A DNA stretch of 64,000 bases from assembly GCF_019977295.1 (NCBI RefSeq), contig NZ_AP024651.1, positions 4,588,001-4,652,000 on the forward strand. The letters are read 5' to 3'. The notes beneath the pieces are model-generated. The model was given only the letters and a program-made list of their open reading frames with translations. It was not told the origin of the DNA and ran no database searches. The position numbers were made by a program, and so were the translations under genes. Each line of letters opens with the position of its first letter. Within the stretch, counting starts at the first letter, position 1. This DNA comes from Arthrobacter sp. StoSoilB20. Lineage in GTDB: Bacteria > Actinomycetota > Actinomycetes > Actinomycetales > Micrococcaceae. Of the stretch, positions 4,718 through 10,028 are shown piece by piece.

Positions 4718-5782
4718 TCAGGCAGTGGATCGTGCCGAACGCAGCCGTCGCCAGAGGGCCGGCGCCACTACTACTGCGACGCCGACGGCGGCACCAATGA
4801 CGGTCTCGACGATGCGGTCCCGCAGGAGCAACGCAGGATCAACGGGCGCCGCCAACAAGGTAGCTATCAACGCCAGCGGAGTCACGAATACCTGCGCCAC
4901 GAGGTACTGCCGGGCAATGAACATTTCCGCGCCGAACTGGCATGCCGCAATCACCAGGACCATGGCCCAGGGTGCAGGGTTCAGCCACAGGATGCCCGCC
5001 AAAAGCACCAGCCCGATCACCGTACCGGCGATTCTTTGGATGCCCCGGCTTACCCGGTGGCGCGTCGAGTGGCCCACCAGTGGAACCACCGCGGCAACCA
5101 TCGCCCAATAGGTATGCCCGAACCCGAGACGCTCCCCCACCAACGTCGCGATGGTTCCCGCAAGGCCTGCTGCCACCAGGTAGCCGCCGCCCTCAAGCCA
5201 GATCGCCCGACGCTCCGCGCCCGTGTGACGAATGGGCGGCGGGCGTTTCCAAGGCGTTCGATGACTGCTGGCAATGCGCGAGGACATGCCGATCAGCAGG
5301 CAGAACCCGGTTGTCAGGATGGCCACCAGCATGGCTTCCCACAGTGGTGGCTGGGCTGCGATGGAAGCAATGGCGGCGAACGCAAAGATATGAAAGAGGG
5401 AGCCGCCTGGACGGAGCCGCCACGCAGCCACCACCACGGAACAACCACCGGCCACAATGGTGGTCGCGGCCGTCAGGAGCCAGGAATACGCCGCACCCTC
5501 CAACCCGGAAGCCTGGGCAAAACGGGCCATCAAAGCGGCCAGGAGGATGATCAAAAGCATGAAGCCGCCGGCACGCAATTGGCTCCGGAAACGGACGCTG
5601 TGCGGCTCGTTGCGGCCATAAATTCCGGTGAATGCACCGAAGGAGGCAAACACGGCCAGGTCCAACCGCCCGATCAGCGTCAGCGTAATCAGCGGAACGA
5701 ACACACCTATGGCGCAGCGGAGGGCGGGATGGTGGTCCTTGTTTCCAGGACCCATCGTGAACATTTCCGCTACAGCCTTCAA
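4718..5782 (-). CDS. FUSC-family integral membrane protein
   Basis: A protein of 354 residues with two hydrophobic blocks: several N-terminal helices starting near ALRCAIGVFVPLITLTLIG and a second set after residue 200 (YLVAAGLAGTIATLVG onward). It has the FUSC features FASFGAFTGIYGRNEPH and, in the second block, GHTYWAMVAAVVPLVG with HRVSRGIQRIAGTVIG. FUSC proteins include efflux components for aromatic acids such as AaeB; this one is about half the size of AaeB and resembles the single-unit actinobacterial form. Substrate unknown. The neighbouring MarR gene could regulate it. Confidence 0.82.
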   Translation of the reverse strand: MKAVAEMFTMGPGNKDHHPALRCAIGVFVPLITLTLIGRLDLAVFASFGAFTGIYGRNEPHSVRFRSQLRAGGFMLLIILLAALMARFAQASGLEGAAYSWLLTAATTIVAGGCSVVVAAWRLRPGGSLFHIFAFAAIASIAAQPPLWEAMLVAILTTGFCLLIGMSSRIASSHRTPWKRPPPIRHTGAERRAIWLEGGGYLVAAGLAGTIATLVGERLGFGHTYWAMVAAVVPLVGHSTRHRVSRGIQRIAGTVIGLVLLAGILWLNPAPWAMVLVIAACQFGAEMFIARQYLVAQVFVTPLALIATLLAAPVDPALLLRDRIVETVIGAAVGVAVVVAPALWRRLRSARSTA

Positions 5783-5883
5783 GGGGGCGGCTCGCCTTTC
5801 GTCGCAGGATCAAACGTACGACGACGGCGCTGGCGTCCGTTCCAAGGTTACGCTCCGGACGCCGGGCTGCTCCGGAATTGCGA

Positions 5884-5926
5884 CCGGATAGTGCCCGGAA
5901 TCACGCCGACAGAGCGCACTATCCGG
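5884..5926. terminator. Hairpin 3' of the SipW-type operon
   Basis: CCGGATAGTGC and GCACTATCCGG are perfect 11-bp inverted repeats around a 21-base loop. They lie about 80 bp beyond the last gene of the secreted-protein operon and upstream of the FUSC gene. No T run follows, so termination would be of the non-canonical type; the rest of 5783-6004 has only the repeat listed next. Confidence 0.4.
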
Positions 5927-5935
5927 CCACGAATC

Positions 5936-5998
5936 GCTGGTCCGCTTCACGAAGTCGAGTGTCCTGTTCACGAAATCGTGGGTCCTGTTCACGAAATC
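5936..5998 (-). repeat. Three 21-bp tandem repeats
   Basis: On the minus strand GATTTCGTGAACAGGACCCAC is followed by copies differing at few positions (5978-5998, 5957-5977, 5936-5956). The unit is seven codons long, so one minus-strand frame reads as DFVNRTH, DFVNRTL, DFVKRTS, but the 60-codon frame has no convincing ribosome site and is not called as a gene. Confidence 0.7.
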
Positions 5999-6004
5999 CA
6001 GCGT

Positions 6005-7264
6005 TCAGAACCGGGAAGGAGTACCTGAAACTGACCCCGGTGCCACCGCGTTTCCTGCCAGGTCCTTCAATCCGGGGGCCGGGTTGTAGCTGGGGAATAC
6101 CGAGGTGGAAGAAATCACCTTGTCGCCGCTGGTGTTCACTCCACCGAGGGTGATGGTCAGGGTGCCGGAGGTCGCAGTGGGAGTCCAGGCGAGGCTGGAG
6201 GCGTTGTTTCCATTCCCGACGAAAGTCAGGGGTCCCGAATTGTAGATGGCCCCGAGCCCTACGGTGCCAACACTGCATCCGTTACTGGTGACAGTGAGCA
6301 CATTGGCGGCATTGACGGACACCGTCACCACGCCGTTGCCAGTCAGGGTCTGGGCAGTGTTGGCGGTCCACGCAGTGCAGATGGACCCTGCGCTGAGTGG
6401 CTCGGAGAACGTCAGGGCCACCTTGTCACCCGAGGCCATGACTCCGCTCCCGCTGGTACCGCCTCCGTTGATCAGCTGGACACCCGTGATCGTCGGCGAT
6501 GACACGTCCTTGGTGGCCGTCGCCGTGCCTGCGGGACCTGTGTTGCCGGCCGCATCAGTGGCCTTTGCCGAGAAGGTGACGGTCCCGGGGCTGAACGCAC
6601 CCAGATTGACGGGCACGGCTGTCCAGTTGCCGGCCGCATCGGTGGTGATGGTTTGCGTGACAGCCTGGGCTCCGCCGCCGGTGATGGTCAGGACCACCGT
6701 GGAATTAGCTTCCGCCGTGCCACTGACCGGAACACTGCTGACATTTCCTTGGTTGACGGACCCAGGCGCAGTCACCACCGGAGCCAGTGGCGGGGTGGTG
6801 TCGGTGACCGGGGTCGTTGCTGTGCTTCGCTGGCTTTCGGTTCCTTGCCACAGGGAAAGCATGGGGGTCACGGTGTAGTACCAGGTTCCCGCGGGAACTG
6901 CGCTCTCCACGCAGCTCAGTGCCGCCACTGTTCCAGCGCACGCACCTGTAGCCGGGATCCTGGTCCCGGCGGTCGCTGAACTGTAGCGGGCAATACTGTA
7001 GCCGGTCACGGGGCGGCCTGCCGCCGTCGTGCTTGCCGTCCATGAAACCGTGACGTTGGCGCCTGAGATGCCGGCGGCAGGCCGTGCCCCCTGGGCCAGG
7101 GAGTCCGCTTTTGCTGCGCCCGGTCCACTGCTGATGGAGCCCCAGAAGGCGCTGGCAGCGGGTCCGCCCCACGAGAGAAGGAGAAGGCCGGCCACAATGA
7201 TTGCAAGCCTGCTCCTCCAGCCGAACAGTGCAGGGAGGGGTCGGTTCTGACCGGACGGGCTCAC
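6005..7264 (-). CDS. Secreted multi-domain protein with FN3 and Ig-like modules
   Basis: A 419-residue exported protein, last gene of the four-gene secreted-protein operon. The signal segment is LAIIVAGLLLLSW...ASAFWGS, similar to the AYW-type cleavage region of its neighbours. Next come a fibronectin III-like domain (NVTVSWTASTTAAGRPVTGY, about residues 65-145), a bacterial Ig-like domain with TDAAGNWTAVPV (about 155-255), and a SwmB-like domain (KVALTFSEPL, about 265-415). No sortase motif or anchoring helix is visible. The GTG start at 7264 overlaps the upstream stop as GTGA; the frame is open further upstream but reads there as the shadow of the neighbouring gene. It could be a surface or matrix protein. 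Confidence 0.8.
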   Translation of the reverse strand: MSPSGQNRPLPALFGWRSRLAIIVAGLLLLSWGGPAASAFWGSISSGPGAAKADSLAQGARPAAGISGANVTVSWTASTTAAGRPVTGYSIARYSSATAGTRIPATGACAGTVAALSCVESAVPAGTWYYTVTPMLSLWQGTESQRSTATTPVTDTTPPLAPVVTAPGSVNQGNVSSVPVSGTAEANSTVVLTITGGGAQAVTQTITTDAAGNWTAVPVNLGAFSPGTVTFSAKATDAAGNTGPAGTATATKDVSSPTITGVQLINGGGTSGSGVMASGDKVALTFSEPLSAGSICTAWTANTAQTLTGNGVVTVSVNAANVLTVTSNGCSVGTVGLGAIYNSGPLTFVGNGNNASSLAWTPTATSGTLTITLGGVNTSGDKVISSTSVFPSYNPAPGLKDLAGNAVAPGSVSGTPSRF

Positions 7265-7851
7265 TTCCGCACCTCCAGCGTGACGGGGATGGTGAATTGG
7301 GCGCCTTGGCAGGCGGAGAGGGACGAAGCTCCCATGCTGGCTGCGCCGGGAAGCGTCAGCAGGATGGAGGAGTTGGCCGGGATCACCACTGAGGGTGCCA
7401 GCGGCGCGGCCGGCGGCGTGAAGGTGACCCCAGTGGTGGTGCAGCCGGGATGGGCGGCATCTGCCGTCACAGACCCGTTGCCTGCGAGGCCGTAAATGGT
7501 CACCGGATGCGGGTTCGGGTTGGAGGCGCGAAGAAGGACGTCGGCGGTTCCGCCTGGGACCAGGCTGGTTTGCAGGGTGTCGCCCGGGACCAAGGCGTCC
7601 ACCGTGACGTTCTGCAGGGTGCCGTTCGTTGCTGAGCCACTGCCAATGCCCGTGGCTGCCCAATAGGCATAGGCAGATCCTGCCCCGCCCAGGATGCACA
7701 GGGCTACGGTGGCAGCGGCCGTTCGGGCAATTCTGCCCCGTGCCGGGGTATGTGGGGCCGGGGTGCGCGGAGTGCGGGTGCCCTGTGCCGGGGTGCGCGG
7801 GGTGCGGGTGCCCTGTGCCGGGGTGCGTGGAGTGCGGACTGTCGTCGTCAT
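7261..7851 (-). CDS. SipW-type signal-peptide secreted protein
   Basis: A 196-residue protein. The first 40 residues are a repetitive cytoplasmic leader (TPRTPAQG twice, then TPRTPAPHTPARG), then a membrane segment and the cleavage region GSAYAYWAATGIGSGSATNG, matching the SipW-dependent type signal peptides of TasA/camelysin-like proteins. The mature part is beta-rich with two cysteines (HPGCTT and SACQGAQ) and shares a layout with its two upstream neighbours. The ATG at 7851 lies one base after the upstream stop; the frame stays open to 7911. No known enzyme motif. The basic Thr/Pro leader is unusual. Confidence 0.8.
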   Translation of the reverse strand: MTTTVRTPRTPAQGTRTPRTPAQGTRTPRTPAPHTPARGRIARTAAATVALCILGGAGSAYAYWAATGIGSGSATNGTLQNVTVDALVPGDTLQTSLVPGGTADVLLRASNPNPHPVTIYGLAGNGSVTADAAHPGCTTTGVTFTPPAAPLAPSVVIPANSSILLTLPGAASMGASSLSACQGAQFTIPVTLEVRK

Positions 7852-7852
7852 G

Positions 7853-8725
7853 TCAGTTCGCCTGTCCAGTGCCGGTGTAGGTGAGCTGGATGGTTGCGCC
7901 TTTGCAACCATCCTGGTTCCGGGAAGTGTCCAGCATGGTGATCTGGGGCCTCTTCGGCTCGGCCACTCCCAGCGATGACAGGGTTCGATCCCCTGGCACC
8001 ACTGTCAGCGGATAGGTTCCTGCGTACTGGGTGAGCGTGTAGTCAGCCGTGGTGCATGGCAGGTTGGCTGCCGTCGCGGCGGCTGTCCTGACCACCTGGC
8101 TGATGGCAACCGTCAGATTGGTCACCGCGATGGCCTTGTTGTTGGGGTTGGAGATCAGCAGGTCCACGGATCGGGTGACTCCAGGGGCGAGCAGCCCGTT
8201 GACACTACCGCTCACGTCAAAGCTCCGTTTCACTTCCAGGACATGCAGTTGCGCCTGTGCGGACGACTCGATGCTTCCGGCCGTTCCCTTCACGATAAAG
8301 TCCGATTTTCCGGCCGGGGTACCTGCAGCTGTGGAGATTGTGACCGTGGCCTGGACGGTGCTTCCGGAGGTCAAAACCACCGACGACGGCGACCACGCGG
8401 CTGCCGCTCCTGCCGGCAGGCCCGCGGCTGCGAAGGTTACCGGTCCCGTGAATCCTCCAGTGGATGCGACGGACATCGTGTAGGTGGCTGACTGCCCCTG
8501 ATCGACTGTGCGGCTCGAAGGCGACAAAGTCACCGTGATTCCTTTGCCGGCCTTGGCCTGGCTTCCCTGTGCACCGATTGTTCCCTGCCCGCCATTTGTT
8601 CCTTGTCCGCCACTTGCGGCGAGTGCCGCAACAGGCACGAAAGCCACTACCAGCGCCAGGAGCAGCGCGCGCAGTGGTATTCCGATTCGGTGCAATGGCT
8701 CATTGGGCTCTGGCCGGGGGTCCAT
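7853..8725 (-). CDS. Secreted Ig-like protein of the SipW-type operon
   Basis: A 290-residue protein with an N-terminal signal segment (ALLLALVVAFVPVAALAAS). A Gly/Gln-rich spacer with repeated GGQGT motifs follows, then an Ig-like domain (VTLSPSSRTVDQGQSATYTM to FIVKGTAG, about residues 70-150) and a C-terminal domain (about 165-290). The latter has VSGSVNGLLAPGVTRSVDLL, a cysteine in LPCTTADY and a final QDGCKGATIQL. The same two-cysteine plan occurs in both neighbouring small proteins, so the gene looks like a domain-added paralogue. It lies 85 bp after the first operon gene. Confidence 0.78.
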   Translation of the reverse strand: MDPRPEPNEPLHRIGIPLRALLLALVVAFVPVAALAASGGQGTNGGQGTIGAQGSQAKAGKGITVTLSPSSRTVDQGQSATYTMSVASTGGFTGPVTFAAAGLPAGAAAAWSPSSVVLTSGSTVQATVTISTAAGTPAGKSDFIVKGTAGSIESSAQAQLHVLEVKRSFDVSGSVNGLLAPGVTRSVDLLISNPNNKAIAVTNLTVAISQVVRTAAATAANLPCTTADYTLTQYAGTYPLTVVPGDRTLSSLGVAEPKRPQITMLDTSRNQDGCKGATIQLTYTGTGQAN

Positions 8726-8810
8726 GGAAGCTCTTTTCGGACGGTTCAGTGCTGGGCAGGAAGATCAGCCGGGGACCACCACTCACAGGATGGTCCCCGG
8801 CAGGCCGGTG

Positions 8811-9266
8811 CTACAGGCTGGAGACGTTGACCGTCACGATCGCCGATTTGCAGGCGTCCTGGTTCACGGTGGTGCTGTCGTTGAACTTCAGGACGCCGCT
8901 GCCCACGGAGGTTCCGGCGGCGCCTGCTGCCACGGGGCTGTTGCTGGTGACGGCGGTGACCTCAAACCATGCGGGCAGGCAACCAGCCACGTTGGTGGTC
9001 ACGTTCGCGGTGAGGGCGCCAACCACTGTGCCGGAGGTAGTGGAGTTGTCGGCTGTGTAGGCCACGTCAACCTGGTTTCCGGGGGCAAGTCCGCCGGCAA
9101 AAGTTGCATGGAGGGTAACCGTTCCACCGCCGGCCGAGTTGGTCGCTGAGCCACTGCCCGAGCCCGTGGTGGTCCAGTAGGCGTATGCGGCTCCACCGCC
9201 CACAGCTACCAATGCCACGCCTGCGACAGCGGCTGTGATCCGGCTCTTCTTGGAAAGCTTGCGCAT
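8811..9266 (-). CDS. SipW-type signal-peptide secreted protein, first gene of operon
   Basis: A 151-residue protein starting with a twin-lysine basic n-region, a hydrophobic helix and the cleavage region GGGAAYAYWTTTGSGSGSAT. The AYAYW...GSGSAT pattern is nearly identical to that of the third gene. The mature domain is small and beta-rich, with cysteines in AGCLPAWF and QDACKSAIV. The ATG at 9266 has AAGGAG eight bases upstream, the strongest ribosome site of the operon, consistent with a major product. Relatives of TasA/camelysin form surface fibres; fibre formation here is inference. Confidence 0.82.
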   Translation of the reverse strand: MRKLSKKSRITAAVAGVALVAVGGGAAYAYWTTTGSGSGSATNSAGGGTVTLHATFAGGLAPGNQVDVAYTADNSTTSGTVVGALTANVTTNVAGCLPAWFEVTAVTSNSPVAAGAAGTSVGSGVLKFNDSTTVNQDACKSAIVTVNVSSL

Positions 9267-9670
9267 GATAAGACTCCTTGGTTTTCTCTGTCCCGGGGAG
9301 CCGCCTCGCAACCCCCAGCATCCGAACTTTGTTGTCGGATGAAGCGATGCCCCCAATGTTTCTGTGCGGCATGCTTGCGTGGCTACCCTTGGCTGTACGC
9401 CATTTTTCGGGCCGAACAAGGAGTCGGAAATACGCTCATTCCGGATGCAAGTACTCAGTTTTGGGTTGCGGACTACTTGGATGGACAGGTGGGAATGCAG
9501 GCACGGCGGGGCGGCGGGTACTCACTTTTGGTTGAGCCGCTCCGAGTGCCGTCCCCACGCTTCGGGATCCCCTGAAGCGCACCGGCACGCGGCCCTGCGC
9601 GAACATTGTGCGCGTCTTGAGCAAAAACTGCGCTGGCGTTCGAGTCCTGCGGGTTCATGACTTAACCCCC
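9267..9670. other. Operon leader / intergenic region with paired motifs
   Basis: This gene-free stretch should hold the promoter of the secreted-protein operon. Two direct repeats stand out: GTACTCAGTTTTGGGTTG at 9451 and GTACTCACTTTTGG-TTG at 9518, 67 bp apart, in minus-strand terms CAACC(C)AAAA-C/G-TGAGTAC. They could be activator sites. No convincing protein-coding frame was found. Confidence 0.5.
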
Positions 9671-9711
9671 GACGGCGGTCAGCCGCCTCCAGGAGGTTGC
9701 TGACCGCCGTC
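9671..9711. repeat. Perfect inverted repeat with nested hairpin
   Basis: GACGGCGGTCAGC and GCTGACCGCCGTC pair over 13 bp; the 15-base loop contains CCTCC-A-GGAGG, giving a nested stem. There is no T tract. It may terminate transcription or be a cruciform/protein site between lipA and the secreted-protein operon. The 9712-9910 stretch beyond it has only a 12-bp palindrome, GGAAGCGCTTCC, at 9759-9770. Confidence 0.7.
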
Positions 9712-9910
9712 GTTAATCAACGTTTCCGGGTGTTGGCTGAGGGCGTAAACCGGGTTGCGGAAGCGCTTCCAGGGAGTTGAAGCTGTAGAGCTGGATACGG
9801 CGACGCCCACCTCCATGCGGCCACCGCTGAATTTCCGCGATGTCCGTCAGTGGTTCTCCAAAGCATGGCGTGGCCCTTGCGGGCTTGGTGCAGGGGGTCG
9901 TGGAGCAGTG

Positions 9911-10028
9911 CTTAGCCGTGCCCAGCCGTGCCTGGCCGTGCCTGCCGTGCCTGCCGTGCCTGGCCGTGCCTAGCCGTGCCCAGCCGTGCCTAGCCGTGCC
10001 TAGCCGTGCCTGGCCGTGCCTAGCCGTG
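9911..10028 (-). repeat. Decamer tandem array at the end of lipA
   Basis: About twelve copies of CCTAGCCGTG (minus strand CACGGCTAGG) with single-base variants; two copies are nine bases long. The last copy includes the lipA stop codon and final His-Gly codons, so the array looks like slippage copies of the gene's own end. Confidence 0.9.

Follow-up and report, generated by a model that had tools for sequence, protein, structure and literature searches.

A conserved four-gene operon of exported proteins in Arthrobacter sp. StoSoilB20, with a TasA/SipW-like signal layout and a proposed role in a surface appendage

The genome of Arthrobacter sp. StoSoilB20 carries four adjoining genes for exported proteins (g1-g2-g3-g4), three of whose products show the motif AxA[YF]W after a hydrophobic helix. 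They lie on the minus strand at positions 6005-9266 of the 64,000-nucleotide stretch analyzed here (the window, bases 4588001-4652000 of a 4.78-Mb single-contig genome). An earlier note on this DNA compared the products with TasA/camelysin-type proteins, which Bacillus processes by the signal peptidase SipW to build fibres, and the question that the locus raises is whether the operon is a fibre system of this SipW-dependent kind. Our results confirm the operon and show it to be conserved. No description of the four genes as a system was recognized in the literature searched, which was covered mostly at the level of listings and abstracts. The operon resembles the TasA/SipW kind in layout yet fails the family tests of that kind, and its mechanism can be put forward only as a proposal.

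The first gene, g1 (8811-9266), encodes a protein of 151 amino acids (aa) that contains GGGAAYAYWTTTG, with AYAYW following the helix, one immunoglobulin (Ig)-like domain and two conserved cysteines. The g2 product (7853-8725, 290 aa) has an ordinary signal peptide (VAALAASGG), whose helix ends in ALA-A without an aromatic pair, followed by an N-terminal Ig-like domain and a C-terminal domain homologous to g1. The third gene, g3 (7261-7851, 196 aa, GAGSAYAYWAATG), is a paralogue of g1 with AYAYW after the helix and a long N-tail, while g4 (6005-7264, 419 aa, GTG start) has ASAFW in the same place (GGPAASAFWGS), followed by fn3-like and Big_13-like domains, both of which score under the Pfam cut-off in the window protein. 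Thus, the motif stands after a hydrophobic helix in three of the four products, as the earlier note had stated, and its description of start-stop contacts among the last three genes was also correct, since a gap of 1 nt separates g2 from g3 and g3 overlaps g4 by 4 nt (GTGA); the g1-g2 gap is 85 nt. Within g3, a 30-bp tandem repeat at 7757-7837 encodes RTPRTPAQGT repeats in the N-tail, and most g3 homologues among the 120 matches listed are shorter (~163-174 aa).

The motif pattern itself is not enriched in the genome, because a search for AxA[YF]W codons returned 65 matches versus 57 for a reversed-pattern control. A context filter applied to all 65 matches, which asked for a start codon 12-65 codons earlier and for hydrophobic residues immediately preceding the motif, passed eight, including g1, g3 and g4. 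We judged the other five (L184, L187, L203, L218 and L219; L numbers denote loci) from their sequences to be probable membrane proteins or wrong-frame readings, which would leave g1, g3 and g4 as the sole N-termini of exported proteins among the genomic matches, all of them in one operon.

When each protein was used as query against 37 genomes of the genus, own genome counted, all four genes were found in 14; the 23 genomes classed as lacking the operon include four with a g1-like match only (G002, G007, G016 and G020; G numbers denote genomes), most of which have a g4-like neighbour. The closest homologues among the matches listed belong to Paenarthrobacter and Arthrobacter. A scan of named genomes yielded 49 loci, in 45 of which each of the four genes received its name by BLAST; the others (L128, L129, L133 and L134), each with a g1-type N-terminus in the motif scan, were dropped from the counts because best-hit naming gave them fewer than four labels. 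Gene order and strand were identical in 45/45 complete loci. The g3 start lies 1 nt past the g2 stop in 43 and the g4 start lies at -4 in 44, on home-made gene calls whose start codons in relatives are frequently too early. The strict motif was present in g1 and g3 of all 45 loci, in g4 of 42 and in g2 of none, the three remaining g4 proteins having AYGFW (L117, L120) or AWSYW (L130). The g1 and g3 motif counts are partly a matter of construction, because the scan seed contained AYAYW; the g4, order and spacing counts are not. Furthermore, in an alignment of 69 g1/g3 sequences (67 picked among the 240 homologues listed, plus the two of the window), Ala at -3, Ala at -1 and the following Tyr-Trp were invariant.

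When the class was surveyed with a profile free of the AYAYW seed, relatives turned up in 26 of 394 genomes, spread over 18 of 137 genera, counts that are lower bounds because at most nine candidates were scored per genome. By a script-based assignment, all four gene types were present in six of 20 class-wide regions (L273, L276, L277, L280, L283, L284), and the g1, g2 and g3 types in four more (L272, L274, L279, L282), with a differing gene order in L282 and L283; several of the 20 regions are short contigs, and three of the genomes surveyed measure just 1.0-1.4 Mb, with an estimated completeness of 60-76%. The g1-type protein showed a loose form of the motif in 16 of the 20. Several relatives (e.g., L079, L083-L085) have a reduced version, in which a g1-like gene is accompanied by a g4-like one alone, and a search of 72,556 plasmid records gave one g1 match, on a 1.35-Mb Arthrobacter replicon. 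The earlier note had named homologues that sit singly as one finding that would speak against its reading; in relatives, however, the genes stand together as an operon, which removes this objection.

Comparison of family profiles with hhalign gave 98% for g1 versus g3 (A1 versus A2) and 93% for g1 versus g2 (A1 versus A3), although only 26% for g3 versus g2, and the joint g1/g3 profile (A4) matched residues 169-283 of g2. A single domain family thus covers g1, g3 and the C-terminal part of g2. The g1-family profile met only the N-terminal motif of g4 (7.6%) in one run and had no match in another. Among the four window proteins, Pfam and NCBIfam gave sub-threshold matches only, the best being Big_13 in g4 (E 3e-5, 24.8 bits versus a cut-off of 27). 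A search of solved structures by sequence returned one match for A4 (E 0.46) and none for A3, and reading the four translations by eye revealed no LPXTG motif of sortase-anchored pili. The AlphaFold model of g1 is mostly above 90 in confidence (pLDDT) from residue 51 onward, and a Foldseek search with this model placed the TasA fibre (8aur_A) second, as a weak match (E 8.1e-3, prob 0.97, TM 0.33/0.25); 8aur_A was not among the 50 matches listed by VIA-align for the same model.

The end domains of g4 vary between lineages, among Ig repeats, laminin-G lectin and ice-binding domains. Domains over the cut-off in g4 homologues were Laminin_G_3 (L130, L280), Ice_binding (L134), He_PIG (L273) and Big_13 repeats. 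The g4 homologue at L134:4376-7150, from a Marmoricola metagenome-assembled genome, has AWAYW after the helix and matches an ice-binding domain strongly, and from its sequence it is possibly an ice adhesin.

Does the operon need SipW? The earlier note had seen no signal peptidase gene beside the operon, which holds for the neighbourhood, and the genome-wide search that it suggested turned up four SipW-type genes above the TIGR02228 cut-off, the nearest ~23 kb from the operon and beyond the window. The strongest rival to our reading holds that AxA-[YF]W is a poor site for ordinary signal peptidase and that such a remote SipW-type enzyme processes g1, g3 and g4 in trans. Passages of PMC10269814 report that an aromatic residue two places past the cut hinders LepB, the signal peptidase I of E. 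coli, and that 0 of 143 verified substrates have one, which speaks for this rival; the same passages name Trp at P2 as the main culprit in the poor cleavage of TasA, and a Trp at P2 is absent from the operon proteins.

Genome comparison does not tie the operon to SipW. Over the 37 genomes of the genus, a SipW gene above the cut-off was present in 9 of 14 genomes with the operon versus 14 of 23 without it (Fisher p = 1). Five genomes have the operon and no SipW above the cut-off (G003, G006, G013, G026, G029), three of them single-contig (G006, G026, G029); their g1, g3 and g4 all retain the Trp, and each has two PF10502 signal peptidases, except G013, which has three. A home-built SipW profile matched in one of 69 contexts (L067 of G034, ~7 kb off) and in none of the 20 class-wide contexts; the 69 contain five duplicate stretches, and contig ends truncate 12 of the 49 named loci. 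The SipW genes lie megabases or hundreds of kb off in G012 and G022 and on other contigs in G008 and G015.

Several points nevertheless weigh against full independence from SipW. Some homologues bear source names such as 'SipW-cognate class signal peptide' (P0207, P0235); a SipW gene lies on the same contig as the operon at ~23 kb in G000, ~7 kb in G034 and ~35 kb in G001, G009 and G035, and because of the last three a loose SipW neighbourhood may exist; and operon genomes may hold a divergent SipW under the TIGR02228 cut-off. Altogether, we regard processing in trans by SipW as unlikely.

In the own genome, TIGR04088 (SipW-dependent secreted proteins) marks five places, four of them adjoining a SipW gene, and it had no match at E <= 1 in the four window proteins. 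Among the 69 g1/g3 homologues it matched one (E 2.8) and TIGR04089 three (best E 4.2). The TasA/camelysin families NF046066 and PF12389 matched none of the window's own proteins and, among the 69 homologues, one (E 0.085) and two (best E 0.0027), respectively. However, the profile of the 69 sequences matched 15 SipW-type cargo proteins with an hhalign probability of 92% over g1 residues 9-67, versus 0.3% for g2 with its ordinary signal. Trimmed mature g1, considered as a sequence homologue of the cargo, had no detectable similarity to it, and that candidate is not supported. Thus, the part of the SipW/TasA-type reading that stood is the signal layout, together with the weak TasA fold match and the source names, and the part that did not is SipW dependence.

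The signal peptidases and cargo gave some observations in their own right. In each of 19 genomes, two PF10502 signal peptidases adjoin each other, and one member of the pair may have its own specificity. A near-identical 201-aa SipW-type cargo protein is encoded three times in the own genome (L013:6626-8590, L015:6479-7990 and L017:7724-8329, at ~4.57, 1.02 and 0.68 Mb), and two of the copies adjoin SipW-type peptidases that are likewise near-identical, which looks like a recent duplication; a close homologue of this cargo in G033 (L158) has a PF12389 match. At L018:7744-10251 (own genome, ~0.27 Mb), a SipW-type peptidase domain starts an 835-aa open reading frame that adjoins an exported protein.

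What, then, might the conserved aromatic pair do? We propose that the operon encodes a secreted surface-appendage system, with g1 as the main subunit, g3 as a minor one and g4 as an end adhesin, joined by donor strands and not always in need of SipW, a reading that we hold tentatively and place a little short of probable. In this scheme, a cut at AxA|[YF]W would take off the helix and leave Tyr/Phe-Trp, followed by a glycine-rich stretch, as the mature N-terminus, which would serve as a donor strand by plugging into the following subunit's Ig-like domain. The TasA donor strand comprises residues 28-38, and its Phe29 makes hydrophobic contact with the next subunits, as described in passages of PMC9674648; with a cut after AxA, the Trp of the operon proteins would fall on the position of Phe29. 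On this proposal, the Trp would be kept in genomes without SipW because of its role in the mature protein, and a dedicated SipW would not be needed in every host. Because g4 has the donor N-terminus and no detected g1-type domain, it could start or tip the chain, as an exchangeable adhesin with a lineage-specific binding domain; g2, which has a g1-type domain without the donor N-terminus, could end or anchor it and may be a base, terminator or chaperone. The cleavage site, polymerization, the fibre role and the role of each subunit are all inferred. The wider form of the proposal, a class-wide donor-strand system with a Tyr/Phe-Trp plug, g4 as donor only, g2 as acceptor only, a varied adhesin and no dedicated SipW, we consider doubtful, although less so than SipW acting in trans.

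The same motif admits another explanation, in which the helix stays uncut and g1, g3 and g4 are single-pass membrane-anchored surface proteins with Tyr-Trp at the membrane interface. An invariant Trp at the end of a helix suits an interfacial anchor, the poor cleavage expected of LepB-type enzymes would agree with it, and in g2 of L130 and L134 no cut site is obvious after the initial helix. However, the Ala residues at -3 and -1, invariant in the 69 aligned g1/g3 sequences, are what a cleavage site calls for, whereas an anchor does not need them. An uncut helix seems to us more unlikely still than trans processing.

A hairpin with a 13-15 bp stem lies on the minus strand at 8768-8801, in the g1-g2 gap. 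Folds of the 75 nt downstream with z < -2 versus shuffles occurred after g1 in 39 of 45 loci, after g2 in 4, after g3 in 1 and after g4 in 32, versus 5 inside g2; the window's own values are z -1.8 after g1 and z -1.1 after g4. Stem sequences vary between lineages and the hairpin persists (in L096, the 60-nt hairpin stretch truncated the stem). No U-run of an intrinsic terminator was seen after g1 by eye, and in eight relatives no Rfam family reached the gathering score; on positions 5600-10000 of the window its one sub-threshold match, to a miRNA (E 1.9), was taken as chance. The hairpin is probably a partial terminator or an mRNA stabilizer, through which, in the appendage scheme, g1 would be made in excess as the major subunit. 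A third alternative, a released adhesive complex of Ig domains that does not polymerize (e.g., a lectin complex), fits the Ig, fn3, laminin-G and ice-binding domains present, which are also known in secreted non-fibre proteins, but two small paralogues and a g1-excess hairpin suit a major/minor scheme better as a matter of argument, and we consider it the least likely of the readings.

Upstream of g1, AAANTGAGTAC occurs twice on copies 67 bp apart: the element AAACTGAGTAC lies at 9451-9461 (minus strand), ~190 nt before g1, and AAAGTGAGTAC at 9518-9528 (minus strand), 67 bp further upstream. The core GAGTAC had 47 forward (15 reverse) matches in 46 upstream regions versus 4.2 expected, uncorrected for relatedness, commonly near -190 and -257, and was absent in 15 of the 46. 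The longer pattern had 5 genomic matches, two of them at this locus, versus 7 for a reversed control; thus, only its placing is notable. Two further repeats flank the operon: a 21-bp direct repeat (3.4 copies) at 5928-5998, just past the end of g4 in a region that folds stably in 32 of 45 relatives, and a 10-bp tandem repeat (~12.7 copies) at 9904-10028, at the downstream end of an open reading frame that appears to encode lipoyl synthase.

If the appendage reading is true, at least 18 actinobacterial genera share one testable surface-fibre gene set, an exact N-terminal motif is linked to assembly, the aromatic P2' residue is decoupled from SipW dependence, and adhesins, including the possible ice-binding one of L134, can be found by their gene neighbours.

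Finally, we compared the operon with known systems. It differs from TasA-TapA-SipW of B. subtilis (and TasA/CalY of B. cereus) in having no SipW in the operon and no TIGR04088, NF046066 or PF12389 match in the window's proteins, and in its two conserved cysteines and exchangeable multidomain protein. The two are alike as short operons of exported beta-sandwich proteins, with an accessory protein beside the major one, an aromatic P2' if cut after AxA and a weak match in the g1 fold. From the actinobacterial SipW-cognate cargo of TIGR04088 it differs in that four of the five cargo places in its own genome adjoin SipW and the operon does not, and in mature parts without detectable similarity, whereas the signal layout (e.g., TLAYWT in cargo of the order-level relatives L141 and L153) and the profile match across the signal region are shared. 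With chaperone-usher pili, which assemble by donor-strand exchange, the likeness lies solely in the joining principle proposed here.

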